Source: Panopea generosa | Lineage: Eukaryota > Mollusca > Bivalvia > Adapedonta > Hiatellidae | Length of the DNA: 64,000 nucleotides | Direction of reading: 5' to 3' | Assembly (NCBI GenBank): GCA_029582155.1 | Contig: CM055912.1 | Span: forward strand, 1 to 64,000 | Shown: piece by piece, positions 1,429-41,830 of the stretch | Position numbering within the stretch: the stretch's first letter is position 1 | Layout: every line of letters begins with the position of its first letter | Notes under the pieces: generated by a model | Databases searched by the model: none | What the model was told of the DNA's origin: nothing | What the model saw: only the letters and a program-made list of their open reading frames with translations | Made by a program: the position numbers and the translations under genes

Positions 1429-1484
1429 CTGAAACGGTTAAATAAATTGTTTTGTAAAAGAAAATTAAATACTAAACTAATATA

Positions 1485-14328: not shown

Positions 14329-14654
14329 TTGCTTAGACCTTCACCCTTGACAATTGTGGATCCCACCTGACTAGATAGCTTTTGCTTGCACATGGATGAG
14401 TTTAGCTTAAAGTTAAAGGAAAAAACGCTATGAATGTCTTAAAAATATAATAAATAACAAAATAAATAAAAAGAATCTCATCATCGTTAATAAATAAAAC
14501 CCGAATGGTTTGGTATGTCACATCAAACCAAAACGTGACCAAAATCGATGTTTAAACTTGAAATCGTACATCCCCGTTCTAAAAATTGACAGCAGTTAAA
14601 TAATGCTTTACGTTATTCGGATTCTAAGATGAAACAATATCTACTTCGTGTTAC

Positions 14655-14828
14655 AAGCCTGTATCAATGGCAGATCTACTCTTTAGAAAGAGGCGTTACC
14701 CCCACCCACTCCCTTATAAACTCCTATATTTTATTAAAATTCACTATATTTCTACTGAAAAACATCTGTGCCCGTTCAGATTTTGTGTTGCGCCCCTCTA
14801 GTCTGAAATCCTTGATCCGCCCCTGTAC
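14655..14828 (+). mobile_element. Short dispersed element, copy 1
   Basis: This resembles 15878-16065 in the same orientation. Shared landmarks are ATGGC(A/G)GAT(C/G)TACT, a run of ACCCCCACCC type, AATATTTTATTA, CTACTGAAAAACAT-like sequence, CCGTTCAGAT, and a closing CGCCCC. It has no open frame of its own and is an interspersed repeat inside a larger dispersed element. The class is not identified. Confidence 0.6.
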
Positions 14829-14953
14829 ATACATGTAACGGGATCAAATGCAATCAGGTGACTTAAAATACTTCACATATTAGGTTGCACTTTTAAGCAG
14901 GAAATCTATTTTCGTCTAACCTTGGCGCGTAGCCCAAACCAGTGAATCATGTG

Positions 14954-15163
14954 TATAGGCATGTGTTGATAGATATCCGTTTGCATAGGCATGCGTTGAT
15001 AGATATCTGTTTGTATAGGCATGTGTTGATAGATATCCGTTTGTATAGGCATGCGTTGATAGATATCCGTGTGTATAGGCATGTGTTGATAGATATCCGT
15101 TTGTATAGGCATGTGTTGATAGATATCCGTTTGTATAGGCATGTGTTGATAGATATCCGTTTG
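14954..15163. repeat. 30-bp minisatellite, 7 copies
   Basis: Seven units of GCATGTGTTGATAGATATCC plus GTTTGTATAG, differing at a few positions (GTG or GCG; CCG or CTG). It sits inside the dispersed element, about 150 bp from the donor of exon 1. At the matching place (near 41630-41690) the other copy of the element has no array. Confidence 0.95.
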
Positions 15164-15315
15164 GACATGCGGGGTCAGTGAGTTTATATTGGAAAAACAT
15201 ATTTTTAACCAATTTTAAAAGTTTGAAAAATCCAGATAATTTCCTTTTTAAGTTATTAAATTCAATATTTTACGCTTAAACACCTATAACTATATGATTT
15301 AAGTACAATACTTAC

Positions 15316-15659
15316 CTGTGTTTAACGTCCATACAGACGGTGCATCCAATCTCGTCGTCATTCTGGCAAATCATATCCTGAAGTTTAGTAGGATGTAGTG
15401 GACACCTGTCCGTCGGCACAGACACTAAACTCCTAGATACGCTGGTCGGGAACTCCGTCCTACCCAGCAGTTTATGATCCTTCATATATGGAACATCGTG
15501 AGCATTAACACATGTACTACAATAATAATCCACGCAGTCTACACAATAATGGGTGGCTTCCCTAGTCCTGTTTTTTGTCTTGCAAGTAGAACAGATGAAA
15601 TCAAAGATTTCATCTGATGCGCCCTGAAGTGTCCGCCCCATATATTTTGATGTCGCCAT
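15316..15659 (-). CDS. TRIM-like protein, exon 1: tandem B-box zinc fingers, no RING
   Basis: This is the first coding exon of a two-exon gene. The start is the ATG at 15659, with G at -3 and G at +4. The 115 residues hold two B-boxes. B-box 1 uses C23, C26, C39, C42, C47, C50, H54 and H62. B-box 2 uses C86, H89, C98, D101, C106, C109 and H114. No RING finger precedes them, so this is the RING-less B-box class of TRIM-like proteins that is greatly expanded in bivalves. B-boxes bind zinc and support assembly; E3 ligase activity of its own is not expected without a RING. The exon ends in a textbook donor, CAG|GTAAGTATT (intron from 15315). The split codon AG|G joins exon 2 in frame and gives KHR|SCIDVV, continuous with B-box 2. 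The exon has no breaks, unlike exon 2. Confidence 0.9.
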
Positions 15660-15877
15660 TTCGATCGCCTCGCTTTAAATATTATACGACCGCTACGTCT
15701 GATAAACAAGTTGTAACTAAACGTCATTGACCTGATTTGTATTTCCTGTAAACGAAAACGAAAGTAGATTTCCTGAAATTTGTATTTTGGTGTTGTGTGC
15801 GGACAAAGCGTCCTGTTTACATGCCCATGACGTATTATACTTAATCTGTATATGTATGTGTATGGTTAATAGATTTT
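15660..15877 (-). promoter_or_regulatory. 5' flank of the TRIM-like gene
   Basis: This is the sequence immediately upstream of the exon 1 ATG. On the minus strand an AT-rich stretch (TATAATATTTAAAG) lies only about 20 bp before the ATG. That is too close for a TATA box serving this start, unless the 5' UTR is spliced or nearly absent. No other promoter element can be supported. The call is positional. Confidence 0.25.
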
Positions 15878-16065
15878 CAATGGCGGATGTACTTTTTAAA
15901 AACACCGGCGTATGCCCCCACCCCTTAAACTCCAATATTTTATTACAATTCACTTTATTCTTACTGAAAAACATGCATACCCGTTCAGATCTCGTATTGT
16001 ACAACTTAAGTACGCCCCCTCCCCCCCCTCCCCACACACACACACATTCTGGATCTACCCCTCCA
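15878..16065 (+). mobile_element. Short dispersed element, copy 2
   Basis: This is the same family as 14655-14828 and in the same orientation: ATGGCGGATGTACTTTTTAA, CCCCCACCCC, AATATTTTATTA, TTACTGAAAAACAT, CCGTTCAGAT. It ends in a C-rich and CA microsatellite (16017-16047). Together the two copies bracket exon 1 of the TRIM-like gene, about 1.2 kb apart. Confidence 0.6.
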
Positions 16066-16266
16066 TTTCAATGCAATGACCAGGAGTGGTTTGAAGTAAA
16101 CACAGAGTGTAATGTTTATCGATACGTTTCAAAAATAGTTCTTGCTCGGGGTAAGTTTTATATTTAACTAAATCGATATGTATAAGTGTAAGGTTTATAG
16201 ATCAGGGGCGGGTTCGCCGTTGACGGGGTAATAATATGTGAAAACCAAAGACATAGACACATGTGT

Positions 16267-16340
16267 ACACGGTGTTAAGGTGTGATGGTTCTTTGAGGCA
16301 TGTTATGGTTCGGCTGCATTGAAACCCGCTCGTTTTTAAA
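16267..16340 (+). repeat. Left arm of a 3.5-kb-spaced inverted repeat
   Basis: About 70 bp match the reverse complement of 19704-19769, including GAGGCATGTTATGGTTCGGC followed by TGCATTGAAACCCGCTCG. A 6-7 bp gap and a few substitutions separate the arms. The pair encloses a LINE fragment and the 73-bp minisatellite. It could be the terminal inverted repeats of a large element, or two copies of a short repeat in opposite orientation. Confidence 0.85.
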
Positions 16341-16419
16341 CCTTCTTATGTTTCCCCATTACGTATACATTGTATAAAATACGTATACATTTTAAAACAT
16401 ATGACCCACATTATCATAA

Positions 16420-16618
16420 TGTGAAGAGTTTATAGAAAATGCCGACCATTACTTTTTTAAATGTCCTAGATATATCAATCAAAGATCAAACGACACGAGC
16501 AGTACATCCGTTAAATATTAATCTACTACTGCGTGGAAGTGAATCTCTATCTATAGAAGAGAATATAACTAGTTTGGATGCTGTTTATAAGTGTATCAAA
16601 GACACGCCTAGATATTAG
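16420..16618 (+). pseudogene. Non-LTR retrotransposon, C-terminal end of the polymerase protein (decayed)
   Basis: Reading from 16420 gives CEEFIENADHYFFKCPRY, the zinc-knuckle-like tail (C...H...C) typical of LINE ORF2 proteins. After a frame change near 16500 it continues with INLLLRGSE and SLDAVYKCIKDTPRY, then stop TAG at 16616-16618. This C-terminal layout (knuckle, then a LL-G motif, then V-x-x-x-I-x-x-T-x-R-(F/Y)) is common to many molluscan LINEs. Only the last 65 or so codons remain; no reverse transcriptase core is visible upstream. It is an AATAAA-following, 5'-truncated relic. The clade is not assigned. Confidence 0.75.
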
Positions 16619-16982
16619 TATAACTATGAATAATAAATGAAAGATAAACACAAAACAAATAGTTACGGTTTGAATAGCCGAGTTGAACAAACCATGCATA
16701 GGTTTTATACATATGAGTGCTTTGTTCAACTTGATATAGCCAAGAAATTATATAGCCAAATTATTATAATATCATATATTTTTATATGCCTTCTCAAATA
16801 GATATTTATATACCATGAAAACAGTTGTTGTATATGAACTTGTTGCCTTTAAATTATGTAAGATTGAAGATGTGCACGCACCTGTGTGCTAGTGTGTCCT
16901 GTCTAAAATATAAATCTGAGAATATGCCTGTCATTGAGAGAAGACACTCATATACTTCTCTTTTTTCCTGAGCTTATATAAT

Positions 16983-17056
16983 GTCTCTCCATTTCTCTTT
17001 CTCTCCCCCCTCTCTCTCTCATTCACACTCTCTCTTTCTTTCTTTCTTTCTCTCTC
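16983..17056. repeat. CT / CTTT microsatellite
   Basis: A pyrimidine-rich simple repeat: TCTC runs interrupted by a C tract, then TTTC repeats. Confidence 0.9.
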
Positions 17057-17333
17057 CAATTAAATATTTATAATTGTTTGTATAATCATAACATGTGAAG
17101 TTTGTTCTTTTATACACTGTGACTGTAAATGTGTTTCTTGTAGCGGAAGTATCGAATCTAAGTTGGAGGAATTTGTGGTCCAATCCCATTTCAAATATTT
17201 GAAATAATATATGTTTAAACTATAAACATTAACTTACTGTTTATAGGGTGGTCCACGAACTATCTTAAAAACAATAATATCAACAGGGGCGTAGCTAAAT
17301 CCTTTTTGTAATAAACAAAAACTCATTAAATAT

Positions 17334-19224
17334 GTGGGAGTGTGTTGGGTAATAGGAGGACTGCATTATTGTGGTTGTAAGATAAAACATTATGTTGGTA
17401 TGATATGTGGGAGTGTGTGGGGGAATAGGAGGCTGCATTATTGTGTTTGTAAGATAAAACATTATGTTAGTATGATATGTGGGAGTGTGTGGGGGAATAG
17501 GAGGCTGCATTATTGTGTTTGTAAGATAAAACATTATGTTGGTATGATATGTGGGAGTGTGTGGGGGGAATAGGAGGGCTGCATAATTGTGGTTGTAAGA
17601 TAAAACATTATGTTGGTATGATATGTGGGAGTGTGTGGGGGAAAAGGAGGCTGCATAATTGTGGTTGTAAGATAAAACATTATGTAAGTATGATATGTGG
17701 GAGTGTGTGGGGGAATAGGAGGGCTGCATAATTGTGGTTGTAAGATAAAACATTATGTTGGTATGATATATGGGAGTGTGTGGGGGAATAGGAGGGCTGC
17801 ATTATTGTGGTTGTAAGATAAAACATTATGTTGGTATGATATGTGGGAGTGTGTGGGGGAATAGGAGGCTGCATAATTGTGGTTGTAAGATAAAACATTA
17901 TGTTGGTATGATATGTGGGAGTGTGTGGGGGATAGTAGGGGGTGCATAATTGTGGTTGTAAGATAAAACATTATGTTGGTATGATATGTGGGAGTGTGTT
18001 GGGGAATAGGAGGCTGCATAATTGTGGTTGTAAGATAAAACATTATGTTGGTATGATATGTGGGAGTGTGTGGGGGAATAGGAGGCTGCATAATTGTGGA
18101 TGTAAGATAAAACATTATGTTGGTATGATATGTGGGAGTGTGTGGGGGAATAGGAGGGCTGCATAAGTGTGGATGTAAAATAAAACATTATGTTGGTATG
18201 ATATGTGGGAGTGTGTGGGGGAATAGGAGGCTGCATAATTGTGGTTGTAAGATAAAACATTATGTTGGTATGATATGTGGGAGTGTGTGGGGGAATAGGA
18301 CGGCTGCATAATTGTGGATGTAAGATAAAACATTATGTTGGTATAATATGTGGGAGTGTGTGGGGGAATAGGAGGGCTGCATAATTGTGGATGTAAGATA
18401 AAACATTATGTAAGTATGATATGTGGGAGTGTGTGGGGGAATAGGAGGGCTGCATAATTGTGGATGTAAGATAAAACATTATGTTGGTATGATATGTGGG
18501 AGAGTGTGGGGGAATAGGAGGGCTGCATAATTGTGGATGTAACATAAGACATTATGTAAGTATGATATGTGGGAGTGTGTGGGGGAATAGGAGGACTGCA
18601 TAATTGTGGTTGTAAGATAAAACATTATGTAAGTATGATATGTGGGAGTGTGTGGGGGAATAGGAGGGCTGCATAATTGTGGTTGTAAGATAAAACATTA
18701 TGTAAGTATGATATGTGGAAGTGTGTGGGGGAATAGGAGAGCTGCATAATTGTGGTTGTAAGATAAAACATTATGTTGGTATGATATGTGGGAGTGTGTG
18801 GGGGAATAGGAGGGCTGCATAATTGTGGTTGTAAGATAAAACATTATATAAGTATGACATGTGGGAGTGTGTGGGGGAATAGGAGGGCTGCATAATTGTG
18901 GTTGTAAGATAAAACATTATGTTGGTATGACATGTGGGAGTGTGTGGGGGAATAGGAGGGCTGCATAATTGTGGTTGTAAGATAAAACATTATGTTGGTA
19001 TGATATGTGGGAGTGTGTGGGGGAATAGGAGGGCTGCATAATTGTGGTTGTAAGATAAAACATTATGTTGGTATGATATGTGGGAGTGTGTGGGGGAATA
19101 GGAGGGCTGCATAATTGTGGATGTAAGATAAAACATTATGTTTGTATGATATGTGTGAGTGTGTGGGGGAATAGGAGGGCTGCATAATTGTGGATGTAAG
19201 ATAAAACATTATGTTGGTATGATA
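17334..19224. repeat. 73-bp minisatellite, about 26 copies
   Basis: The unit runs GTGGGAGTGTGTGGGGGAAT, AGGAGGGCTGCATAATTG, TGGTTGTAAGATAAAACATT, then ATGTTGGTATGATAT. Length alternates between 72 and 73 bp (GGAGG or GGAGGG), so open frames shift from unit to unit. It lies centrally between the inverted repeats at 16267-16340 and 19704-19769. Satellite-like central arrays are known in bivalve non-autonomous elements such as the pearl family. Confidence 0.97.
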
Positions 19225-19703
19225 CTGATACTCCGCAGAATCTTACGTAGATTAACAACAGACCCATTCATCTGGAAACAATGCTTGTGTAGCGCTATTA
19301 CTTAATAAACTAAAGATGTGATTGCTTTGACATGTGTTTGATATCAGATACTTTATCGGTGTATAATGAATGGCAACCAAATCTTATTTATAATATGATA
19401 TTAATCTGACGATATATTATGTCTGTCTGTCTAAATTTTTAAATTTATTTGTCTGTCGATCGGCTTTATAGATAATTCACCCTGTACACCGAATCATAAT
19501 TATTATTTTATAAAAAGAGGTGTAATTATTTTAATTTACTTATATCACAATTTGCCTTCATAGACATATAAGGCTATAGTATAGAAACAGCCCACAGTAA
19601 CTTTCACCTGCTTTATTATTTTATAACACATGTGTAAAAGTTGAATTCAACATAGGAATGAGTCATTTGTTTTAAAATGATATAAATGGGAAAAAATAAA
19701 ATG

Positions 19704-19769
19704 TTTTAAAACGAGCGGGTTTCAATGCAGCCGAACCATAACATGCCTCACAGAACCATAACACCGTGT
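19704..19769 (-). repeat. Right arm of the inverted repeat
   Basis: The reverse complement matches 16267-16340. The outer side borders a T-rich tract (19770-19789). No target-site duplication was found by eye around the two arms. Confidence 0.85.
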
Positions 19770-19789
19770 TTTTTTTGTGTTTTTTTTTT

Positions 19790-21638
19790 AATTTCAATCA
19801 CTGAAAAGTGATCCATTTAATCACCCCGTAATAGGTCTGTGAGGGTCGGGGTGGGCCATTCCTCAACAAACCGTACAAATATATAAATCAGTCAAGTTGT
19901 AACATACATTCATATATATATACACTGAAAGGAAAAATAAAGCATACATTTACACACAAATTTAATCCAATATAAGTTACAATCATTGGGACAACTGGTA
20001 ATAACCACTCGTCATGCCGAAAATTGACAAAATTCGCCGCAGCTGCTTCGTTTTCAGAAATGATCACAGAGAAACAAAGAATCGTATTTGAAAAGAACCG
20101 GTGTGCGTGAACCACAAGACACATACAGAAACATTGAAGACGACTCGCCTTTGTTGTCAATATTTCATGTGACCGGACCATCACAGGAAATGCTACCGAA
20201 CATTTTACACATTTATGTGATGGTTTGGGAGATTACCAGACGTGAAATAAACGCGTTAAAGCAAACGTCAACATTGTTATAGCTCATTAAGTATACGGTG
20301 TGTGTTAATTAGATAAAACTGGATATACATTTACATTCTACAAAAAGATTTTTGTGCACACAAGTATATATCTATGTCAAGACTTATAAAACATGTTTAA
20401 TATTTAGTACAATACACTTTATAAATCAAACCATCCCCCAAACAAAAAAGTAACCAACAGCTTAGTTTCTATTGCCCGATGTGGATCTTAAAATAAACTA
20501 TGTTTTATCTGAATGTGGCAATTACAAATGTTATAATGACATTTTAATCTTCCTGAAATTAATATGCTACTAGTTGTATATCAATCAAATGAAAAGATGG
20601 GCGCACAATGGGGCACGGTAAGATAAATTTATATTCGAGCGTGGGCTGGAATACATGTCCACTACGGACTACATTACTTGAATGTACGCTCAACATATCA
20701 GAACATATTTATGAACTGTGAATTGTAAACTGATATGCATTTAGCACGGCTCAGCAAATACACAATACAAGGCAGTTGGTTTGTAATGCAAACAGATTAT
20801 TTTACCTGTTCACAAACACTATTAACTGCCATCATATCATACAAATAAAATATAAAACGCAGTTAAGTTTACATAACATAAGAGATTAAACAGCGCGGTG
20901 TATTATTTAACAAAGCTTAATAGAATATGTGTTATTTAAAGTGTAGAGCATTGAAAGTAACTTCTTTAGAATGATAAGATACATTTAATTTTTGCTTAGG
21001 TGCTAAGGTAAATCATAGTCGTAATTTCATTGTATTGTAGCTATGTCAATTTACATGGAAGCGACAGTGTGAGCGGCTGCATGCTGTATATCCCTGTGCT
21101 TATTTGCATATTCACTTACAACGTAACATCATACACATATCATGTAAACTATTATTCAAAGTCAATAAAAGTTGATGTGATATATCTATATAGTTTTAAA
21201 TCCAAACAAACGGTAACAGTTTGTCATTTGTTTAACAGCTACAGTCCATGTAGGGACAATACAATTACGTTTATTAACAATTCATCGTAAGAGTGATTCC
21301 CCTTATTAACAATATAGTATTTGCTAAACTAAGCTTTAATAAGCAATGTTTTAAGGCACAATGATGTTCCATATATGAACAGTTTTTTTTTTCATTATTC
21401 GATAATATGACGAGAAGAAACGTACGTTAAAATAATATAAATATCATGTTGTAACGCAATCCCGTAATCAGTTATATACAAACTGCAATACAGGAATATA
21501 CTTAACTCATGTGTTTGCTAATAATCTCCATTCTTCTGATATTTCAATGACAAAAGTTAATTAATATCAGTCCAATAAATGGTATGATGTCCGTTTCTAA
21601 ATTCAAAACTGAGCGTTTTTGTTTTGAGAAGCAATCAA
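19790..21638. other. AT-rich non-coding stretch
   Basis: Short open frames (for example 19888-20184 minus and 20088-20282 plus) match no family I recognise and lack splice or start context. I see nothing else here. Confidence 0.5.
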
Positions 21639-21710
21639 GTCGAGACTGGAATCGAACAAACGACATTGGACGTGACGGACTAACACTATACCAACTGTAC
21701 TGCATCCGTC
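21639..21710 (-). repeat. tRNA-derived SINE head or tRNA pseudogene (tRNA-Asp-like)
   Basis: On the minus strand the A-box region is CAGTTGGTATAGTGTTAG, the anticodon-loop region is CCGTCACGTCC (GTC), and the B-box is TTTGTTCGATTCC. The arm pairing is imperfect, so a working tRNA gene is unlikely. Heads of this type are typical of molluscan SINEs. No clear SINE body was identified downstream. Confidence 0.55.
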
Positions 21711-24700: not shown

Positions 24701-24718
24701 GTGTGTCAGAGTTAAGTG
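21711..24718. other. AT-rich non-coding stretch with minor simple repeats
   Basis: It holds a G-rich run at 22174-22202 (GGAGGAGGGGTGTGGGGGAG) and an AT dinucleotide run near 23196-23212. No exon, RNA gene or element end could be supported. Short open frames near 22953-23138 are AT-rich and unrecognised. Confidence 0.5.
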
Positions 24719-25055
24719 AGCAATACGAGAATCATGAAAGTCATATGAGAATCAAGAAAGCAATACGAGGAGAATCAAGTAAGCAATACGAGTATCAAGA
24801 AAGCAATACGAGAATCAAGAAAGTCATACGAGAATCAAGAAAGCAATACGAGAATCAAGAAAGCAATACGAAAATTAAGAGATACGAGAATCAAGAAAGA
24901 AATACGAAAACTAAGAGAGCAATACGAGAATCATGAAAGCCATACGAGAATCAAGAAAGCAATACGAGAATCAAGAAAGCAATACGAAAATTAAGAGAGC
25001 AATACGAGAATCATGAAAGTTATACGAGAATCAAGAAAGCAATACGAGAATTAAG
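24719..25055. repeat. 20-bp minisatellite, about 17 copies
   Basis: The unit is AATCAAGAAAGCAATACGAG, with variants AATCATGAAAGTCATACGAG and AAATTAAGAGAGCAATACGA. Immediately after it a 36-bp direct duplication (ACCCAGTATATATAACAGTA at 25097 and 25133) is visible. Confidence 0.93.
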
Positions 25056-25159
25056 ACGATACTTATTAACAATGTACATGTGTCAATATGGAAACTACCC
25101 AGTATATATAACAGTACATCCTGTATAAAAACACCCAGTATATATAACAGTACACAGTA

Positions 25160-25982: not shown

Positions 25983-26259
25983 ACTTGTATAATCTTAATT
26001 CCCTCAATTCGGTATTTCTCCACACTCATGTGCCATGTAAATTAAACTGTTTATGTCGTGCCGATTAGGTCGACACGACGGTCGTGGCGATAATCTCGTC
26101 CGTGATATTTTGCACAGGTCTCTGCGTATTCATTCCCGTCAACTCGCTCTGGAATTATCGTATTTAGGATAGTTGTTGTTGCCTTTAGAGCGGGACGCGA
26201 TTTAATCGACACCATCAACACTTCACATTCTGACTGTAAATAACAGTGTTAAATATTTT
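25983..26259 (+). repeat. 277-bp direct repeat, copy 1 (LTR-like)
   Basis: It begins ACTTGTATAATC and ends AAATATTTT. It matches 28017-28293 over exactly the same length with about four differences, all transitions. It contains a 13-nt palindrome, CACGACGGTCGTG (26074-26086). Two equal-length direct repeats around 1.76 kb suggest a small LTR-type non-autonomous element. However, the ends lack TG...CA and no target duplication is seen. Confidence 0.9.
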
Positions 26260-28016
26260 TTCAAAATCCTACCGTCGGTTATGTCTATACCAGATTCTAT
26301 CGAGTGAAAGACCCAGGCATTGGCCCAAGATGAATATGTGATTATATTTCGAGTTACCTGTACTAAACCATTAACAGAACCAGCATAGAACACTGATAGG
26401 CAACACGTCGGTGTTTTACTCACACTTGCATGAAACAATTTCAAGTGCCGCGAACAAGGATTCAACCTGGTTCCCCTGACATAACCAATGACATAACCAA
26501 TGTTCCAGCGCTCAACTATTGAATAATAGTCGTGCGAGTCATAATAACAAGTTCCTTCCCCCAAACCAACCACCCACACACACCAACTTCATTGTCAGGG
26601 ATGGGGATTACTAACGAATTTGATAAAGATTGCATAATTATACATAGTTTTACGCTGATAAAATCAGTGCGACATTTAGCGTTGGGTTTCTGATATAACA
26701 GTGATACAAATCTAGCGTTAAAGGTGCGACATTTTGCAGCAGATGATTTTGCAATATTAAGCGTTGGTTACAACATTTAACGTCAGTATTGCGACATATA
26801 TAACGTTAGTTGCGACATTCAGCGTCGGTGCGACATTTAACGTTGCCACAGCGTCTATAAACAATTGTATTCGTGATTAGTTTTAGTGAAACCAATTCCG
26901 GATAATTTCGGATTACCGGAAATCTTGTCATGTGATATGAAAAAAATGAAATGTCTATCCGCACGACGGTCGTGTCCATTATTGCCTTTATCCGAACGAC
27001 GGCAATGCCGATATTGTTTCTTTTTAGCATGACAGGTGCTCGACAAGGGAAGTAAGTCACGGCCGATAATCAAGGGGTACGATATTATATATCTGGGCAT
27101 TTTCTAACATTTTCAAGATAAGGCTGAGATTTATAGGATCTGGCACTCGTTATTTTATACAGAATTTTACTATTAAACGAGCACTTTTCCGGGACGAGTT
27201 TGATGAAATTCTGTATGAATTGACAGCAAGTGTCAGATTCTATTCATCACATTTCCCGCGTACAGATAAAAAATCAAGTTAGTAACTTACAAAAGGACAT
27301 ATATGCAGACCCATTTCATAGGCCAAATAATCATAACAGGATGTGTAAGTCTGGCCTAAAAATAATTCTAACTAAAAACACATTTATCGATTCAACTATA
27401 CAATTATTCATTATACTCGCCAAGGCACACTTATTAAAACTTTTCTTGGACGAGTTTAATAAAATTCTGAAGTTGTATAAATACGCGAATTAATACAAAG
27501 ATCGGGTGTATCGGCATCCAAAGACGTTCAAGGTCGTATTACACGTGAGTGTTATAAAATATACGTAATGGATGCATTACATAGTAAACAATGGTAGATA
27601 TTGGATAAACATGATTAAAAGAGAGAGGAAAGAGACAGAAAGAAAAGAGAAAGAAAGGGAGAGAGATTGCGGTTGCTTGTTTTGTCCTGTTTTCTTTCTC
27701 TTTATACAGTTTTTCCTACCTCTACTCTCTTCTTCTCTCGAGGCTGGCTCGAATTTCAATCCGGATGTTAGCAAGTTGAGGGGGACATAAAGCTCGTAAA
27801 TTATTTAATGGATTTTTCACAGGCATTTCAATAACTTTCGAAATTTGAGACTTGTCTACATTGTTATATAATGCACCAACCATTTTTTAATTAAAAAGTG
27901 CTGCCAACACAACCTAATTGTTTCCATGGAAATCAAACTATATATTTTTAAAAGCTGTTCTTGTGATGCCTGAGACTATCTTGTCTGTTGATGTTTTGGT
28001 TGCGTCTATTGTCATG
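26260..28016. other. Interior between the 277-bp direct repeats
   Basis: It holds no recognisable polymerase or capsid coding sequence. It contains a third copy of the 13-nt palindrome CACGACGGTCGTG (26962-26974), a degenerate GCGACATTTAACGTT repeat (26665-26850), and a GA-rich then CT-rich tract (27615-27735). Open frames at 26223-26579 (minus) and 27230-27493 (plus) are unrecognised. Confidence 0.5.
26665..26850. repeat. Degenerate short repeat (GCGACATTTAACGTT type)
   Basis: At least five imperfect copies of TGCGACATTTAGCGTTGG are spaced irregularly (near 26669, 26723, 26793, 26811 and 26830). It looks like an old, decayed minisatellite. Confidence 0.6.
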
Positions 28017-28293
28017 ACTTGTATAATCTTAATTCCCTCAATTCGGTATTTCTCCACACTCATGTGCCATGCAAATTAAACTGTTTATGTCGTGCCGATT
28101 AGGTCGACACGACGGTCGTGGCGATAATCTCGTCCATGATATTTTGCACAGGTCTCTGCGTATTTATTCCCGTCAACTCGCTCTGGAATTATCGTATTTA
28201 GGATAGTTGTTGTTGCCTTTAGAGCGGGACGCGATTTAATCGATACCATCAACACTTCACATTCTGACTGTAAATAACAGTGTTAAATATTTT
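28017..28293 (+). repeat. 277-bp direct repeat, copy 2 (LTR-like)
   Basis: This is the partner of 25983-26259, with the same length and orientation and about 98.5% identity by eye. The palindrome CACGACGGTCGTG is at 28108-28120. The left flank (GTCATG) and right flank (ATCCTAAAAA) are unlike those of copy 1, so the identity stops sharply at both ends. Confidence 0.9.
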
Positions 28294-28360
28294 ATCCTAA
28301 AAATATCGGACATAAAGGTGATGCCTCTTTAATAAGATTGGGTGTGTTAGCGTGAAGAAT

Positions 28361-29312: not shown

Positions 29313-29390
29313 AAGACGTCGTGTGTTTAAACCGCAGTTAGAAACAAAAAATAAATAAAGTATTTCATAAAAATATGTATTTATCAATGA

Positions 29391-29550: not shown

Positions 29551-31200
29551 CGAAATGATTTTATTTAAGTTCAGTTTCTTTACGTGAAATTTACGAGTTT
29601 ACTGGTCGCATATTTGATGTTTTGTATCAGGTAACTGCACTTATACTGACGCCGCGCATGGTACCTCTAAGCGTAACACGACGTTTACGTTAAAAGTGTA
29701 TAAAATGTAATATGACGTTTTTATTCACGTATTTCGTATAATTTATTTTACAAGAAAATAGCCGAATATCGGAATATCAATTATTGCAATTGAATCATGA
29801 TTTTCTGCAGATATCAAAACCAATGATATAACTGTACCTACATAAACTATGAGAATCTACCATGTACATAACAAGCGGCGTCCACTGGTTTTCGCTGTAT
29901 TAAAAGAACGTCAAACTGACGTTGTAGATATTTAATAGAGGACATCTGAAATACTTGATACGAGGTGTAAATTATTTTCGAAATTTTTCAATATTTTGGG
30001 ACATTAACAGAATCTAAATTTTCGCATTAATATAATTTTCAAAAGTCAATATTCTGTGTTAGAAATATGGTAAATATGGTCAAAATGTGAGGACAGACGA
30101 TATTTTTTGTTAAAAATGCTAAGGGGCGGCAAATCATAGAGGACATTTTATACGAAATCAGAACCATTCAGAGCAAAGTGAATATATTTCATTCCACATA
30201 ACCATGTTCCACTGAAAATTTACTTTAGTATGATATGATTTTGATATGTATAAATTCGCGATTTATTCTAAAAATAATTAAATTAATCAAATACGTTTCA
30301 ATTATTTATTTCAAATAACGTTGGCGGACAACACCTTAAAAATGTAATATCTCATAATCGCAATAGGAAAAAAGTCATCAAGTACCATATAATAAAACAA
30401 TGAACATATACATACATATTTTTAATGCAATACTAACCATTATTTTTCATCTTGACTGTTCAGTATGTCTTTATTGGCGAGTCGTTTGTTTTTTTTGGAC
30501 ATTCAGCATATACGTAATGAACCGCGTGTTCCGTAAATGCCGTCAAGTTTGTTGATTTAAAACACACCTGTCTGTAACCGGAAATTATGTCACTTTCTCC
30601 AGTGAATAGACCTGATATCTGTCCTTTCGCGCCGTTTTTAAACATAACATTTTAGGCCGGAACCCGTGGTAAATGTTACGCCGGGGACGGGGAAAATGAC
30701 GTTAAATGTGACTTATTATTAAATTGAAATGTATAGATCATATCAATAGCATAGTTTATATCTGTCAACTGAAAATATCGCGCAACGACCTTTACTTTGA
30801 TATATAGTAAGTATAATTCCAAGACGATCTAGTATTCGGGACAGTTTTATATATTTCGGGTATTAGTTTCATAACGCAAGTATCATTACTGTGTGCGACG
30901 TCATTACTATAAAACTAGCTTGCTCACATCTCATTTGGACTATTTTAAAGCAACCAACTTGTTGTTGCTTTATTTATGCCTGGAATCTACAAAAGACCAA
31001 TGGATGTAAGTGATAAAGTAAGACGGTATACTGGTCTCTTCAGGAAGATGTGAGTTATACACATTATAAAATAACATCAGATCGGCAGTGTCTGTACGAC
31101 CACGGAGTGTATTAACAAAATAACAGGAGTTTCACTATGATAAAAATGTATGGATAAATTGTTTTAATTTGAAGATATCAATTCAGTTGGATGATTAAAC
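29551..31200. other. AT-rich non-coding stretch
   Basis: No exon, RNA gene or repeat is supported. The open frame at 30460-30645 (minus) is unrecognised. Confidence 0.45.
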
Positions 31201-31204
31201 TTTT

Positions 31205-34200
31205 TTTATTTTACTTCGATTGTGAAATAGGTTTTACAACTTAGACAAACCACACTCGAAGGTTTCTTGGGTAGTATCAGCACTGGCTAGAATCAGTATT
31301 AGGTAGAATCAGCACTTGGTAAAATCAGCACTGGGTAGAATCAGTACTGGGTAGAATCAGCACTGGGTAGAATCAGTACTGGGTAGAATATCAGTACTGG
31401 GTAAAATCAGTACTAGGTAGAATATCAGCACTGGGTAGGATCAGTACTAGGTAGAATCAGCACAGGGTAGAATATCAGCACTGAGTAGAATCAGCACTGG
31501 GTAGAATCAGCACTGGGTAGAGTATCAGGAATGGGTAGAATCAGCACTGGGTAAAATCAGCATTGGGTAGAATATCAGTACTGGGTAGAATCAGTTCTGG
31601 GTAGAATCAATACTGGGTAGAATCAGTACAAGGTAGAATATTAGTACTAGGTAGAATCAGTTCTAGGTAGAATCAGAACTGGGTAGAATCAGTACTGGGT
31701 AGAATATCAGTACTCGGTAGAATCAGCACTGGGTAGAATCAGTACCGGGTAGAATCAGTACTAGATAGAAACACTACTAGGTAGAATCAGTTCTGGGTAG
31801 AATCAGTACTAGGTATAATCAGTTCATGGTAGAATCAGTACTGGGTAGAATATCAGTACTAAGTAGAATCAGTACTGGGTAGAATCAGTACTGGGTAGAA
31901 TATCAGTACTGGGTAGAATATCAGTTCTTGGTAGAATATCAGTACTTGGTAGAATCAGTACTGGGTAGAATCAGTACTGGGGAGAATTATTACTGGGTAG
32001 AATTAGTACTAGGTAGAATCAGTTCCCAGTAGAATCAGTACATGGTAGAATATCAGTACTGGGTAGAATCAGTACCAGGTAGAATTAGTACTAGGCAGAA
32101 CCAGTACCAGGTAGAATTAGTACTAGGTATTCAGTACTGGGTAGAATTAGTACTAGGTAGAATAGGTAGAATCAGTACTGGGTAGAATTAGTACTAGGTA
32201 GAATAGATAGAATCAGTACTTGGTAGAATTAGTACTAGGTAGAATAAGTAGAATCAGTACTGGGTAGAATCAGTACTAGGTAGAATCAGTACTGGGTAGA
32301 ATCAGCACTGGGTAGAATCAGTACTGGGTATAATCAGTACTTGGTAGAATTAGTATTGGATAGAATATCAGTACTGGGTAGAATATCAGTACTGGGTAAT
32401 ATCAGCACTGGGTAGAATCAGCACTGGGTAGAATCAGTAATGGGTAGAATCAGTACTAGGAAGAATCAGCACTGGGTAGAATCAGCACTGGGGAGAATAT
32501 CAGTACTGATAAAATCAGTTCTGGATAGAATGTGTACTGGGTAGAATCAGTACTAGGTAGAATATCAGTACTAGGTAGACTCAGTACTGGGTAGAATCAG
32601 TACTGAGTAGAATCAGTAGTGGGCAGAATATCAGTACTGGGTAGAATCAGCACTGGGTAGAATCAATAATGGGTAGAAATAGTACAAGGTAAAATCAGTA
32701 CTGGTAGAATCAGTACTAGGTAGAAACAGTAATAGGTAGAATCAGTTCTGGGTAGAATCAGTACTAGGTAGAATCAGTTCTAGGTATAATCAGTTCTGGG
32801 TAGAATCAGTACTGGGTAGAATATCAGTACTGGGTAGAATCAGTACTGGGTAGAATATCAGTACTGGGTAGAATCAATACTGGGAAGAATATCAGTACTT
32901 GGTAGAATCAGTACTGGGTAGAATATCAGCACTGGGTAGAATCAGTACTGGGTAGAATATCAGTACTGGGTAGAATCAATACTGGGAAGAATATCAGTAC
33001 TGGGTAGAATCAGTACTGGGTAAAATATCAGTACTATGTAGAATCAGTACTGGGTAGAATATCAGTACTGGGTAGAATCAGTACTGGGTAGAATATCAGT
33101 ACTGGGTAGAATATCAGTACTGGGTAGAATCAATACTGGGAAGAATATCAGTACTGGGTAGAATCAGTACTGGGTAAAATATAAGCACTGTGTAGAATCA
33201 GTACTGGGTAGAATATCAGTACTGGACAAGATCAGTACTGGGTAGAGTATCAATTCTGGGTAGAGTATCAGTACTGGGCAGAATATCAGTACTATGTAGA
33301 ATCAGTACTGGGTAGAATATCAGTACTGGGTAGAATCAGTACTGGGTAGAATATCAGTACTGGGTAGAATCAGTACTGGGTAGAATATCAGTACTATGTA
33401 GAATCAGTACTGGGTAGAATATCAGTACTGGGTAGAATCAGTACTGGGTAGAATATCAGTACTGGGTAGAATCAGTACTGGGTAGAATATCAATTCTGGG
33501 TATAATCAGCACTGGGTAGAATCAGCACTGGATAGAAATAAGCACTATGTAGAATCAGCACTGGGTAGAATCAGCACTGGGTAGAATCAGCACTATGTAG
33601 AATCAGTACTATGTAAAATCAGTACTAGGTAGAATCAGTACTAGGTAGAATAAGTACTAGGTAAAATCAGCAGTGGGTAGAATCAGCACTGGGTAGAATC
33701 AGTATTGGGTAGAATCAGTACTATGTAGAATCAGTACTAGGTAGAATCAGTACTGGGTAGAATCAATACTATGTAGAATCAGTACTATGTAGAATCAGTA
33801 CTAAGTAGAATCAGTACTGGGTAGAATCAGTACTGGGTAGAATCAGCACTATGCAGAATCAGTACTAGGAAGTATCAGCACTAGGTAGAATCAGCACTGG
33901 GTAGAATCAGCACTGGGTAGAACCAGTACTATGTCGAATCAGTACTATGTAGAATCAGTACTAGGTAGAATCAGTACTAGGTAGAACCAGTACTGGGTAG
34001 AATCACTAATGGGTAGAATCACTACTGGGTAGAATTAGTACTGGGTAGAATCAGTACTGGGTAGAATCAGCACTAGGTAGAATCAGTACTGGGTAGAATC
34101 AGCACTAGGTAGAATCACTGCTGGTAGAATCACTACTGGGTAGAATCAGTAATGGGTAGAATCAGTACTGGGTAGAATCAGTAATAGGTAGAATCAATGC

Positions 34201-34290
34201 TGGGTAGAATCAGCACTAGGCATAAGCGGAAAAAATGCTTTGCTCCAGGACACCACACATCATCGGATGATTGCTGTTACCAATATCGAA
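31205..34290 (+). mobile_element. Dispersed element, copy B, expanded by a 16-bp array
   Basis: The left flank (31212-31270: CTTCGATTG, ACAACTTA, CTCGAAG, TTGGGTAG) and right flank (34217-34275: GCATAAGC, TTTGCTCCAGGACA, ACACAT) match 41165-41227 and 41230-41290 respectively. There the two flanks are separated by a single GGGTAGAACCAGTAT unit. Here the same point is occupied by about 2.95 kb of array. Confidence 0.65.
31270..34217. repeat. 16/18-bp minisatellite, about 180 copies
   Basis: The unit is GGTAGAATCAGTACTG, with an 18-bp form carrying an extra AT (GAATATCAG). Variants are CAGTACT, CAGCACT and CAGTTCT, and CTGGGTAG, CTAGGTAG and CTATGTAG. The 16- and 18-bp forms alternate in runs (for example 32860-33480), which is a simple higher-order pattern. 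Confidence 0.96.
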
Positions 34291-34477
34291 CACAATCTGA
34301 TTTTGTTAAAGTTGCAATTGTTAAATAAATCAAATTTATCTAGAATTGGTTCCTAGCTTGAGACATCGTTGTTCCGACTTTCGACTTCCTGTTGCTCATT
34401 TACAATTAAAATTAAAATTATGGTACGTTCTAATTATGCATGTTTATATACTATAGACTGTCAAATATAGTGTGTGT

Positions 34478-36811
34478 ATATGTCAACTAGAAACGAGCAA
34501 TACCGTCGCAACATAACTGTGTATGTCAACTAGAAACGTACAATACCGTTGCAACATAACTGTATATGTCAACTAGAAACGTGCAATACCGTCCCAACAT
34601 AACTGTGTATGTCAACTAGAAACATGCAATGCTGTCGCAACATAACTATGTATGTCAACTAGAAACGTGCAATACCGCCGCAACATAAATGTGTATGTCA
34701 ACTAGAAACGTGCAATACCGTCGCAACATAACTGTGTATGTAAACTAGAAACGTGCAATACCGCCGCAACAGAACTGTGTATGTCAACTAAAAACGTGCA
34801 ATACCGCCGCAACATAACTGTGTATGTCAACTAGAAACGTGCAATACCGTCGCAACATAACTGTGTATGTCAACTAAAAACGGTATTGAACGTGCAATAC
34901 CGTTGCAATATAAATGTGCAATACCGTCCCAACATAACTGTGTATGTCAACTAGAAACGTGCAATACCGTCGCAACATAACTGTGTATGTCAACTAGAAA
35001 CGTGCAATACCGTCGCAACATAACTGTGTATGTCAACTAGAAACGTGCAATACCGTCGCAACATAACTGTGTATGTCAATTAGAAACGTGCAATACCACC
35101 GCAACATAACTGTGAATGTCAACTAGAAACGTGCAATACCGCCGCAACATAACTGTGTATGTCAACTAGAAACGTGCAATACCGTCGCAACATAACTGTG
35201 TATGTCAACTAGACACGTGCAATACCGCCGCAACATAACTGTGTATGTCAACTAGAAACGTGCAATACCGCCGCAACATAACTGTGTATGTCAACTAGAA
35301 ACGTGCAATACCGTCGCAACATAACTGTGTATGTCAACTAGAAACGTGCAATACCGTCCCAACATAACTGTGTATGTCAAATAGAAACGTGCAATACCGT
35401 CGCAACATAACTGGTATGTTAAATAGAAACTTGCAATACCGCCACAACATAACTGTGAATGCCAACTAGAAACGTGCAACACCGCCGCAACATAACTGTG
35501 TATGTCAACTAGAAACGTGCAACACCGCTGCAACATAACTGTGTATGTCAACTAGAAACGTGCAACACCGTCGCAACATAACTGTGTATGTCAACTAGAA
35601 ACGTGCAACACCGCCGCAACATAACTGTGAATGTCAACTAGAAATGTGCAATACCGCCGCAACATAACTGTATGTCAACTAGAAACGTAAAATACCACCG
35701 CAACATAACTGTGTATGACAACTAGAAACGTGCAATACCGCCGCATCATAACTGTGTATGTCAATTAGAAACGTATAATACCGCCGTAACATAATTGTGA
35801 ATGTCAACTAGAAACGTACAATACCGTCGCAACATAACTGTATATGTCAACTAGAAACGTGCAATACCGTCGCAACATAACTGTGTATATCAACTAGAAA
35901 CGTGCAATACCGTCCCAACATAACTGTGTATGTCAACTAGAAACGTGCAATACTGCCGCAACATAACTGTGAATGTCAACTAGAAACGTGCAATACCGTC
36001 GCAACATAACTGTGTATGTCAACTAGAAACGTGCAATACCGTCGCAACATAAGTGTATATGTCAATTAGAAACGTGCAATACCGCCGCAACATAACTGTG
36101 AATGTCAACTATAAACGTGCAATACCGCCGCAACATAACTGTATATGTCAACTAGAAACGTGCAATACCATCGCAACATAACTGTGTATGTCAACTAGAA
36201 ACGTGCAATATCGTCGCAACATAACTGTGTATGTCAAGTAGAAACGTGCAAAACCGTCGCAACATTACTCAGTATGTCAACTAGTAACGCGTAATACCGT
36301 CGCAACATAACTGTGTATGTCAACTAGAAACGTACAATACCGCCGCAACATAACTGTGTATGTCAACTAGAAACGTGCAATACTGCCGCAACATAACTGT
36401 GAATGTCAACTAGAAACGTGCAATACCGTCGCAATATAACTGTGTATGTCAACTAGAAACGTGCAATACCGTCGCAACATAACTGTATATGTCAACTAAA
36501 AACGTGCAATACCGCCGCAACATAACTGTGAATGTCAACTAGACACGTGCAATACCGCCGCAACATAACTGTGTATGTCAACTAGAAACGTGCAATACCG
36601 TCGCAACATAACTGTGTATGTCAACTAGAAACGTGCAATACAGTCGCAACATAACTGTGTATGTCAACTAGAAACGTGCAATACCGTCGCAACATTACTC
36701 TGTATTTCAACTAGTAACGCGTAATACCGTCGCAACATAACTGTGTATGTCAACTAAAAACGTACAATACCGCCGCAACATAACTGTGTATGTCAACTAG
36801 AAACGTACAAT
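34478..36811. repeat. 43-bp minisatellite, about 54 copies
   Basis: The unit runs CGTCGCAACATAACTGTGTA, TGTCAACTAGAAACGTGCAA, then TAC. The main variable site is CCGTCG, CCGCCG or CCGTCC. Blocks near 35930-36290 and 36370-36730 repeat the same variant order, so multi-unit duplication has occurred. Confidence 0.96.
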
Positions 36812-36850
36812 ATGATATATCTCTTTTCAATGTGTCTATATTTCATTTCT

Positions 36851-37060
<210 letters not shown>

Positions 37061-37299
37061 ACCTTTGATATGTAGACGTTTGATGATTGTATAGATTCAG
37101 AACTAAAACACCGTGCTGTAAAAGCGCCAAGCGAACTGAAAAAAACTGCACATGTGCGCTATATCATTTCTTTACGCGACGTCACACTGCGATGCTGACC
37201 AGAACGTAATCAGGATTGGATTTGTGTGGCAACATACACATCGTTGTCATTCCTGGCACACCAAACAAACCGTAGGGGCTCGGTAAATCTATGCCGCCC

Positions 37300-37735
37300 T
37301 GAAACTTCCGGTGAATTTTCATTTCAGATCGGACCTGGACATTCTGATCTGCGATTTCAGAGTTAGCTCGACATTCAATGTTTATTTTGAATGTTGATCT
37401 ACGAATATAGACCGGGTTCGACATTCAAATTCCGACTTCTAACTTTTATTTTGAATGTTGCTCTACTAATATAGACCGGGTTCAACATTTAAATTCCGAC
37501 TTCTAACTTTTATTTTGATCCACGATTGCAAAACTGATTTGACATTCAAATTCCGATTAAGATTTCATTTTTTTTTCATTTTTAATGCTGATCTACGATT
37601 TCAGACCTGCATCAGCATTTAAATTCCGTCTTTTAACTTTTATGTACCTTTGAAAATAACATTGCCGTGTGTACATTTAAAAGTAACATTGCCGTGAGTA
37701 CCTTTAAAAACAACACTGCCGTCCATACCTTTAAA
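37300..37735. repeat. Two degenerate tandem repeats (about 70 bp, then about 31 bp)
   Basis: From 37300 to 37645 about four diverged units share GATCTACGA, AGACC, ACATTCAAATTCCGACTT and TAACTTTTATTTTGA. From 37645 to 37735 three or four units share AACATTGCCGTG and TACCTTTAAA. The second motif and its right flank (AAAGACGGCTTACGT, TTATTACCTGCA) recur at 40700-40845, so this is part of a dispersed repeat. Confidence 0.75.
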
Positions 37736-38101
37736 GACGGCTTACGTGACATGTATCATGGGTCATAGCATTAATGAAGTTATTACCTGCAATTAAGTAA
37801 CAGAGGTTATGTGAGTACTTGCTGAAGGACGGTATTGTACTTAGATTTATTCTAAGTTACCCATTCACCAGAAATGCTTTGCAAATGGTGTTGTTGTTTT
37901 TTTATTTAAAAAAAAAACAAATGTCTAATTTTACATATATGTAAACGCCTGCATGTATAATGTATTTACCATGCACCGGTATTAAACTAATCTTAGCAAT
38001 ATAGAATATGTATTCTTTATATGGTCAACATTGATTAATACGAGCAATGACTGTTACAATTAAGGTAAAATATATATATTTTATCTTTTAAATTTTTTTA
38101 T

Positions 38102-38179
38102 TGGTACCAGTGCGGTTTGAACACACGACTTCCTGCTTCACAAACTAACTGCTTAGACCACTGGACCACGCTGGCGCCT
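38102..38179 (-). repeat. tRNA-derived SINE head
   Basis: On the minus strand it starts GGCGCCAG and ends CTGGTACC, which can pair as an acceptor stem with one mismatch. The A-box region is GTGGTCCAGTGGTCTAAG and the B-box is GTGTTCAAACC. It resembles a tRNA but lacks clean D and anticodon stems. A working tRNA is unlikely. Confidence 0.6.
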
Positions 38180-38607
38180 ATTTATATAGAGAATGTAAGA
38201 CCTTTTAAAGGTGTTAATTGGGCCCGAATAAAGGGACATCATTCTAAATTACCGGAAATAAAATGTATACGTACAACAAATGGCACATGTAGATATGAAA
38301 ATTTTGTAACCCTGGCGAATGATTAAATATGTTTCTATAAATAAAACTGCTAACGGATCAATCAGTAAATGTATTTCTTAAGTGTAACTCCTGAATTCCG
38401 AGTATGCATAATCAATTTACACGAACTTTTATCCACATACTTATTAAACATGGTTGTAATTGTCCTTGTTTCAGCATTACGTCTGTACGTGTGTAAAAAC
38501 ATAACATAAAAACAAGCGTTGAGCAGAAAAATACGTCAAAATAGCGTTACGTGACATGAAGGAACACGCGCAGTGACAATGTTTTGCGTTAATTTGGGAA
38601 ATACAAC

Positions 38608-39957
38608 CGCATAGACGTAGACCACGGGTATTCAAGTACAGACGCATGTCTGTAGACCACGAGTATTCAAGTACAGACGCATGTCTGTAGACCACGGGTA
38701 TTCAAGTACAGACGCATGTCTGTAGACCACGGGTATTCAAGTACATACGCATGTCTGTAGACCACGGGTATACAAGTAAAGACGCATGTCTGTAGACCAC
38801 AGGTATTCAAGTACATACGCATGTCTGTAGACCACGGGTATTCAAGTATAGACACATGTCTGTAGACCACGGGTATTGAAGTACATGTGCATGTCTGTAG
38901 CCCAAGGGTATTCAAGTACAGACACATATTTGTAGACAACGGGTATTCAAGAACATACGCATGTCTGTAGACCACGGGTATTCAATTACAGACGCATGTC
39001 TGTAGACAACGGGTATTCAAGTACAGACACACGTCTGTAGACCACAGGTATTCAAGTACATACGCATGTCTGTAGACAACGTGTATTCAATTACAGACGC
39101 ATGTCTGCAGATCACTGGTATTCAAGTACAGACGCATGTCTGTACACCACGGGTATTCAAGTACATGTGCATGTCTGTAGACCACTGGTATTCAAGTACA
39201 GATGCATGTCTCTAGACAACGGGTATTCAAGTACAGGCACATTTTTGTAGACCACGGCTATTCAAGTAAACACGCATGTCTGAAGACCACGGGTATTCAA
39301 GTACAGACGTATGTCTGTAGACCACGGGTATTCAGGTACAGACGCATGTTTGTACAGACGCGTATTAAAGTACAGATACATGTCTGTAGACCATGGGTAT
39401 TCAATTACATACGCATGTCTGTAGACCACGGGTGTTCAAGTACAGACGCATGTCTGTATACAACAAGTATTCAAGTACAGACACATGTCTGTAGACCACG
39501 GGTATTCAAGTACATACGCATTTCTGTAGACCACGGGTATTCAAGTATAGACGCATGTCTGTAGACAACGAGTATTCAAGTACAGACGCATGTCTGTAGA
39601 CCACGGGTATTCAAGTTTGTACAGACGCATGTTAAAGTACAGGCGTATGTCTGTAGACCACGGGTATTCAAGTACAGACGCATGTCTGTAAACAACTTGT
39701 ATTCAAGTACAGGCGCATGTCTGTAGAACACGGGTATTCAAGTACAGACACAAGTCTGTAGACCACGGATATTCAAGTACAGACGCATTTCTGTAGACCA
39801 ATGGTATTCAAGTACAGATGCATGTTTGTACAGACGCATGTTTAAGTACAGACACATGTCTGTAGACCACGGGTATTCAAGTACAGACGCATGTCTGTAG
39901 ATCACGGGTATTCAAGTACAGACGCATGTCTGTAGACCACCGGTATTCAAGTACAGA
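38608..39957. repeat. 35-bp minisatellite, about 38 copies
   Basis: The unit is GTAGACCACGGGTATTCAAG plus TACAGACGCATGTCT, with variants TACATACGC, TACAGACAC and GACAACG. A shortened insertion-bearing unit (GTTTGTACAGACGCATGTTA type) recurs near 39349, 39615 and 39826, which marks a spread variant block. The spacer 38187-38600 is non-coding. Confidence 0.95.
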
Positions 39958-41150
39958 TATTTTTTAGAAAAACATGTCTGGCCAGAAAGCCAGTCTAACT
40001 TAAGGTTCTTTTAGAGACATACTAGTATAGTATGTTTCAGCTCATATAGCAAAGTATATTAACCCCAAATATTAAAGATTTTATTTAACTATAAGTACTA
40101 ATTATACTCTGAGCTTGGATGAAACATAGTTGCCCATTAATGTTTGATCTTGTTACGGTGTGGGTGTCTGTTCTGTGCCAGGCATTTTTACTATTTTGTT
40201 TTTGTCAAGTTCAAGCGCTACTCCTGGATAAAACCAATTTTCAAATTGGTCATTGCATGAACATGCATATATATATATATATATATATGGGTATATCCTG
40301 TAGGCAGGCAGGCAGGCAGGCAGGTAGGGCAGGCAAATTCGTTAGTTCGCATTGTAACATATATATAGCTATATAGCATCGTAACTTCGCAGAAAATTTT
40401 GCGTTGCATCATCGCGCAGTTTCACAGTCGGTCCTGTCAGACAACGTGAACACCCCTTTCTCTCCAGCGTCAGCGACAAGGCTGGTAGTATTGTTTCTAA
40501 CCACAACCGGTTTAACTGCCCATGTCCTCCTTAAACAGTCTGCACCATATTACAACTCAACGTTTTTTTAGAAGTTTCATCAAACTTATTGTACTGGTAT
40601 TTTTACATGTCGATTTCACAAGATCATCAATGAGTTTTTTGGAAATACTTTCTATGCGTTCATATGTGTAGATTGGGTTGATGGCTGATAAAGGCGATTT
40701 CAACATTGCCTTTTGTACGTTTACAGACGAATATTGCCTTTTGTACCTTTAAAAAACCATTTTGCGGTTTCTATCTTTAAAGACGCCTTACGTCATTTAT
40801 CAGGTGTCGCAGTGTGCATTTATGAAATTATTACCTGCATTTTATTTAAAAAAATTTAAACAAAAGATAGTCAGTCGTTCAGGGACAATGACCTTTTTTA
40901 TTATGATATAACGACAGAAAATGATTTAGTTCAATTATGTTCTGAGAGACCAATGAAACTAGTAGCAATTTATTCTTTTAAGTTAGTTACATCAGTTCAA
41001 ATCCATGCCTTTTAGAGTACATGTACAAGAAATGAAAGTTAGTAATTTGTTTTATTTCAAAGAACTGATCAGGTTAAAAATTTGGGTTTTGACTCTCAGG
41101 GTAGCAGAATTAATGGGAAAGATATAAGAAATCTGTCCTTTACTTTAATA
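39958..41150. other. Non-coding stretch with microsatellites
   Basis: It holds an AT run (40266-40288), a GGCA tetranucleotide run (40301-40335) and a dispersed-repeat segment (40700-40845) that matches 37645-37800 (TTTAAAGACG, CTTACGT, TTATTACCTGCA). No exon was found. Confidence 0.5.
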
Positions 41151-41151
41151 T

Positions 41152-41830
41152 TAACTTATTTATTTTTCTTCGATTGAGAAACATGGTATAACAACTTAAG
41201 ATAAATCATGCTCGAAGTGTTCCTGGGTAGAACCAGTATAAAGCATATACAGATAAAGTGTTTTTGCTCAAGGACATAACACATAGCTGTCCATATTTAA
41301 AATGGATGAAAAGCATCTCATTTTTATAAATAAATAAAATCCAAATGGTTTGATATACCTGTCATCCAAATCTCAACATATCGATTTTCAATACGAGTTA
41401 CAAAACGGAAACAAAATCGCCATATTAAAAATAGACAGCGTTTAAATCCTTCACATCGTCCTTCAGGATTCTTTCCAAGATGGGTGCAAATTTAACATGC
41501 AACCCTACAAGACAAATCAAATTGAAATCAAAATCAACACCACCCATTTATTACTTTCCAAAATATTTTGCAATTTTAATCGCGAAATCTTTATTAATCT
41601 CACCTAGGCCAAGTTAGGAAACTCTTTTTTAATATATTATTTTGGCAGATTTATTATTATATTTATCCTTTGGCAATACTGTGTCAATGAGTATATACGG
41701 ACACGATATATTGGAGAAAAAAAGTTTTAGGTCAATTTAAAAAATCCCAATATACTTCCTTTAAAAATTCTGACCTCGCTTGACAACAATCCAATTAAAT
41801 ATTAAAGGTGCTACAATATTCATTAGCATT
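41152..41830 (+). mobile_element. Dispersed element, copy C, with a single 16-bp unit and no arrays
   Basis: The left 140 bp match the two flanks of the 16-bp array at 31.2-34.3 kb, with only one GGGTAGAACCAGTAT unit between them. The right part (41310-41780) matches copy A at 14.4-15.3 kb, but lacks its 30-bp array and its inserted short element. It is therefore an unexpanded version that joins the other two. There is no coding capacity. Confidence 0.6.

Follow-up and report, generated by a model that had tools for sequence, protein, structure and literature searches.

Do three related stretches of DNA in the bivalve Panopea generosa preserve the birth of minisatellites inside a dispersed repeat, and what kind of repeat carried them? 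The stretches lie in positions 1-64,000 of contig CM055912.1 (assembly GCA_029582155.1), which are referred to here as the window, and are labelled copy A (14.4-15.3 kb), copy B (31.2-34.3 kb) and copy C (41150-41818). An earlier note, made from the letters of the window, described them as one mobile element in three states, unexpanded in C and expanded by different minisatellites in B and A. At one homologous position copy C contains one 16-bp unit and copy B contains 181, and this pair of states is the strongest part of the finding. The whole is probably best explained by old, diverged copies, in-place growth of the 16-bp array of B and a separate 30-bp amplification in A.

One 16-bp unit in copy C and 181 in copy B

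The features shared by copies C and B are as follows.

41150..41284, + strand: left module of copy C, matching both flanks of the 16-bp array of B (0/500 shuffles per side; 0/486 and 0/983 decoys)
41223..41238, + strand: single 16-bp unit of copy C (score 28 against a shuffle maximum of 24, 0/200; 14/16 bases as in the consensus by reading)
31194..31267, + strand: left flank of the 16-bp array of copy B, from its alignment to C
31268..34217, + strand: 16-bp minisatellite of copy B, 181 units, of which 131 measure 16 bp, 39 measure 18 bp and 11 have other lengths
34218..34260, + strand: right flank of the 16-bp array of copy B, from its alignment to C

Significance was judged against dinucleotide shuffles and against decoy stretches drawn from the array-masked window on both strands. 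Decoys were taken each 100 bases, and each 50 bases in the set of 983; both decoy tests of B were run without the 16-bp unit. In strict local alignment, C 41150-41236 and B 31194-31280 share 70 identities in 89 columns, and C 41223-41284 and B 34200-34260 share 47 in 62 columns (0/500 shuffles in each case). Both alignments run into the single unit of C, which sits between sequence like the left flank of B and sequence like its right flank. This unit was scored against a doubled 16-bp consensus. The earlier note gave about 180 units in B, and in C one unit and no 30-bp array; the count in B is 181, the unit of C is at 41223-41238 and no 30-bp array is listed in C. The right end given for B is corrected, as the match stops at 34260.

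When 40900-42100 was compared with the window by BLAST (E up to 0.001), the only non-self matches were three: B 31202-31280 (79%, E 1e-11), B 34200-34260 (76%, E 4e-5) and A 14459-14516 (79%, E 2e-8). A blind nhmmer search (--max) with C alone, on both strands of the window with arrays masked, recovered C, three pieces of A and two pieces of B, all collinear, and nothing besides C, A and B up to E 10. A profile built from A, B and C together recovers them by construction and is not evidence.

Three collinear blocks and a 30-bp array in copy A

The right module of copy C and the corresponding parts of copy A comprise the following features.

41299..41818, + strand: right module of copy C, matching A in three collinear blocks; the final 48 bp (41771-41818) are marginal (26/500 shuffles)
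14459..14631, + strand: copy A block 1, against C 41299-41482, 130/191 columns (0/500 shuffles under strict and relaxed gap costs; 0/444 decoys)
14664..14790, strand not assigned: another interspersed repeat, separating block 1 from block 2 and present again at 15877-15999 (78% identity, E 2e-21)
14843..14926, + strand: copy A block 2, against C 41527-41609, 56/84 columns (0/500 shuffles; 0/475 decoys)
14952..15163, + strand: 30-bp minisatellite of copy A, 7.1 units, between blocks 2 and 3
15154..15247, + strand: copy A block 3, against C 41664-41762 (0/500 shuffles and 0/483 decoys under relaxed gap costs)

The alignments of C with the flanks of B on its left and with A on its right, as the earlier note had claimed by eye, are real and stand above shuffles and decoys. 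They do not fall to background against shuffled sequence, the outcome that the note had set against its own claim: under relaxed gap costs none of 500 shuffles reached the score of any of the five blocks of C, and the decoys gave 0/444, 0/475, 0/483, 0/486 and 0/983. These relaxed tests were targeted, the regions being picked from earlier alignments.

Relaxed gap costs spread the alignment of C and A over 600 bp, and its leftward extension is at chance (260/500 shuffles). At the right end, C 41819-42400 and A 15311-15900 show no match (372/500). Block 3 starts within the last 30-bp unit, and the position of the array between blocks 2 and 3 makes it internal to C-like sequence, at another internal point than the array of B, as the earlier note had proposed. 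As for the interspersed repeat between blocks 1 and 2, C 41483-41720 does not match it (121/300 shuffles), and the tile of the window that holds its second copy matches just 14664-14790 at E 0.05 or better. The flanks of the arrays in B and A are homologous to array-free sequence in C and the 16-bp unit is single in C, which is the pattern of a minisatellite derived from a dispersed repeat. That the 30-bp unit expanded from C sequence is not supported, since 318/500 shuffles reach its score.

Proposed history of the three copies

Copies A, B and C would be old, diverged copies or fragments of a dispersed, non-coding sequence, or else of two such sequences that lie next to each other in C. In B, one 16-bp stretch that is still single in C may have been duplicated, and the array would then have expanded on the spot to 181 units, with replication slippage and unequal exchange as the likeliest causes. 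The array of A would have arisen at another internal point, through amplification of an unrelated 30-bp unit to seven copies; a further short interspersed repeat lies between two blocks of A. This history is favoured because five collinear blocks stand above the nulls, because C alone recovers only A and B, and because the single unit of C lies between B-like flanks. In-place growth is further supported by a survey of human minisatellites, which argues that arrays, once initiated, gain units by local duplication (PMC3389668).

Several observations weigh against this history. Two of the A blocks are weak in the blind nhmmer search with C alone (block 2, E 0.014; block 3, E 0.89), and block 3 is marginal under strict gap costs (8/500 and 7/500 shuffles). 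A single 30-bp seed unit is not recognisable in C (318/500 shuffles; 49/200 and 106/200 by strand). The array of B preserves no visible trace of growth, since among its 131 units of 16 bp the first eight, the last eight and the rest are equally near the consensus (14.6/16 each). The direction of change is read from C and B only. It is inferred, as are the slippage mechanism and the dispersal of the copies, while the homologies, the two unit numbers at one homologous position and the internal place of the 30-bp array are observed directly.

Nature and dispersal of the carrier

Three other explanations concern the carrier and its dispersal, and none of them conflicts with growth of the array in place. 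The first of these, whose chance is put only a little short of even, is that two different dispersed repeats happen to meet in C. B would share the left module (41150-41284) and A the right module (41299-41818), A and B each being one of these repeats with a minisatellite. In C the homology to B stops at 41284 and the homology to A starts at 41299, within 15 bp, and past those points B and A match C at chance (78/500 and 260/500 shuffles, respectively). Copy A compared with the left and right flanks of B is no better than shuffles (92/200 and 154/200, respectively), and a profile of A and the right module of C does not find B up to E 100. As A and B show no detectable similarity, the three copies are united only through C, which may be two repeats side by side. 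A continuation of B into the A-like module finds no support on the same grounds (78/500 shuffles; B missed by the profile of A and C). With three copies, however, the nearness of the two ends could be chance truncation, and both B and A may have been cut by later rearrangement, given that a 43-bp array begins 214 bp after B and a 46-bp array ends about 130 bp before A.

The second explanation, which is rather doubtful, is local duplication, in which the three loci derive from duplications of chromosome segments within a 27-kb stretch and not from transposition. The common orientation of all three copies and their closeness within 27 kb keep it in consideration, and no element ends are visible. 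The homology is limited to short blocks, however, and the tested flanks beyond them are without a match. Dispersed repeats are also common in the window. It was divided into 95 tiles of 670 bp. The search took the 28 tiles in which no more than 70 bases were masked; the other 67, including those over A, were dropped as too masked. Thirteen of the 28, that of C among them, match another part of the window at E 0.01 or better, so that a dispersed match as such is not rare.

The third explanation is that of the earlier note, a single family of mobile elements about 670 bp long, in the body of which minisatellites arise again and again at different sites, so that it supplies much of the local satellite DNA. 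It has in its favour that C unites B-like and A-like sequence in one stretch and that an internal array is present in each of the related loci, though not at the same point. Against it stand the lack of anything detectable in common between A and B, the ends of the two matches within 15 bp of each other in C, the lack of terminal repeats at the tested ends, a share of just 8% of the tabulated array DNA in the A and B copies, and the other array units, which in C are at shuffle level with one weak exception. This family is considered unlikely, and "one mobile element in three states" exceeds the data: A and B as parts of one element fail both the direct comparison, which is at shuffle level, and the profile search.

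Mobility of the element likewise finds no support in the sequence. At the ends tested in C, A and B, neither inverted nor direct terminal repeats exceed chance. The best inverted match at the ends of C is 10 bp (100/300 shuffles), and the ends of B and A gave 151/300 and 156/300, respectively; tested by module, the left part of C gave 157/300 and the right part 86/300. Perfect stems of at least 7 bp with a loop up to 12 are absent from 41050-41900 and from the flanks of B, and the one perfect stem in A (14506-14530) is not at an end. There is no listed microsatellite row within C and no open frame of at least 70 residues, the size covered by the listing, in C 41150-41818. Searches of the window gave no known RNA family at gathering score and no tRNA.

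Three candidate carriers were tried and rejected or set aside. A HINE or other Helitron-like element was rejected because there are no sub-terminal inverted repeats, end palindrome or microsatellite. A miniature inverted-repeat transposable element (MITE) or other transposon with terminal inverted repeats was rejected because no such repeats stand above shuffles. An intron of a neighbouring gene, duplicated and moved together with its exon, was set aside: tblastn with the translation of the B-box exon beside A gave no match near C among the matches listed, and the sequences beyond the right ends of C and A do not match, as given above.

Relatives outside the window were sought with two exact degenerate patterns. 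One had no match in sets of genome contigs and viral contigs and the second had none in viral contigs; these sets are unlikely to contain animal genomes and the result carries little weight.

Direction of change

One unit in C and 181 in B mean that the array of B grew in place or that C shrank. Contraction of an array in C, which would then not be the unexpanded ancestor, is judged quite improbable. The unit of C differs from the consensus at just 2 of 16 bases (by reading), and collapse of tandem arrays to one unit is possible through deletion between repeats. Such a contraction nevertheless requires the loss of all units but one with both flanks left intact, and the alignments contain no partial extra unit in C. 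Growth in B is the more likely direction.

Contribution to the satellite DNA of the window

The 13 tabulated arrays occupy 39,659 of the 64,000 bases (62%), and the 16-bp and 30-bp arrays together account for 3,162 of these 39,659 bp (8%). A share of this size leaves unsupported the claim that the element is the source of much of the local satellite load. Nine array units were tested in C on both strands (18 unit-strand tests), the 20-bp, 6-bp, 320-bp and microsatellite units being left out. In C, the 30-, 46-, 43-, 73-, 35-, 33- and 24-bp units stay at shuffle level on both strands (scores reached by 40 to 196 of 200 shuffles). The unit of the array at 5133-6951 gives a weak match (4/200 shuffles), which fails over the 18 tests. 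The idea of a body that repeatedly seeds minisatellites is not supported: different arrays lie at different internal points, but a seed can be seen for the 16-bp array alone.

The 46-bp array had been said to end at the left edge of A. It stops at 14329, about 130 bp before the homology of A begins, and the sequence in between has no match in C (260/500 shuffles). The 43-bp array starts 214 bp after the homology of B, and the two arrays are neighbours of the copies, near them and not inside them. It is very unlikely that a single family with several minisatellite-prone sites, each insertion being apt to develop an array from a different internal segment, was a nursery for the unrelated arrays of the region, including those of 46 and 43 bp.

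Genes and other repeats of the window

An open frame beside copy A encodes a B-box zinc finger (15312-15659, minus strand; Pfam zf-B_box, E 2.5e-7, above the cut-off). Further frames on the minus strand at about 0.2-1.3 kb are beta-propeller-like and coiled-coil-like, below the Pfam cut-offs. If the B-box, coiled-coil and beta-propeller frames are exons of one gene, copy A lies in its large intron. The layout of the frames around A presumably resembles that of bivalve TRIM-type genes. Within 1-15659, the 24-, 33- and 46-bp arrays (about 11.5 kb together) lie between the B-box frame and the coiled-coil and beta-propeller frames, possibly in one intron.

Other repeats of the window were observed at the following positions.

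16279-16360 and 19685-19765: an inverted pair, 82 columns, 91% identical, around a 73-bp array at 17330-19224
25983-26262 and 28017-28296: 280-bp direct repeats, 98% identical, about 1.75 kb apart
37658-37794 and 40702-40842: a 75% identical pair, each with about three units of 27 or 28 bp, flanking a 35-bp array at 38617-39957
42700-43884: several diverged tandem copies of a 320-bp repeat
44495-62003: about 530 copies of a 33-bp unit, forming an array of 17.5 kb

The foldback-like unit at 16279-19765 may be the better example of an array lying within a transposon-like unit. The 280-bp direct-repeat pair (25983-28296) may mark a recent element with terminal repeats; PMC6934838 describes TRIM retrotransposons of bivalves. 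In the 33-bp array, the sub-rows at 50.4 and 53.9 kb are identical, which hints at a longer period, near 3.5 kb.

Comparison with known systems

The birth of minisatellites inside dispersed repeats is already well known. In the survey of human minisatellites, 7,276 of 31,472 (23%) were derived from transposable elements (TEs), the two established mechanisms, slippage and short flanking direct repeats, accounted for only about 6% of the starts of TE-derived minisatellites, and minisatellites of Alu subclasses had a mean of 2.3 to 2.4 units (PMC3389668). The mouse minisatellites Ms6-hm and Hm-2 lie within long terminal repeats (LTRs) of the MaLR type (Kelly 1994, as cited in PMC9659126). Minisatellites that arose in mouse LTRs and short interspersed nuclear elements, and arrays in MITEs, are reviewed in the same source. 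In bivalves, the Helentron-derived Cg_HINE of Crassostrea gigas has internal satellite-like arrays and defined end structures, and the features of HINEs are sub-terminal inverted repeats (11-12 bp), a left-flank microsatellite and a 3' palindrome (PMC7492417). DTC84 of Donax, a Pearl-type MITE with internal tandem repeats, is mentioned in PMC5139131.

The present locus resembles the TE-born minisatellites of the survey of Ahmed and Liang 2012 (PMC3389668), in that an internal segment of a dispersed repeat is amplified in one copy while its relatives are unexpanded. It differs from them in that the carrier is not identified as a TE, there are three copies, and the 181 units far exceed the mean of 2.3 to 2.4 units. 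It shares with the bivalve HINE, as outlined in PMC7492417, a dispersed sequence and an internal tandem array with a variable number of units, whereas the inverted repeats, left microsatellite and 3' palindrome given there were not found in C, A or B. Like DTC84, as briefly presented in PMC5139131, it is a modular bivalve repeat with internal arrays, but no terminal inverted repeats were found at A, B or C.

Significance

The locus is a new example of this kind, and on present evidence it provides one good example of a known process. Copies C and B form a before-and-after pair for the birth of a minisatellite, with one unit and 181 units at the same point. If the genome held hundreds of copies, the rate and the sites of array initiation by a defined sequence would be measurable.

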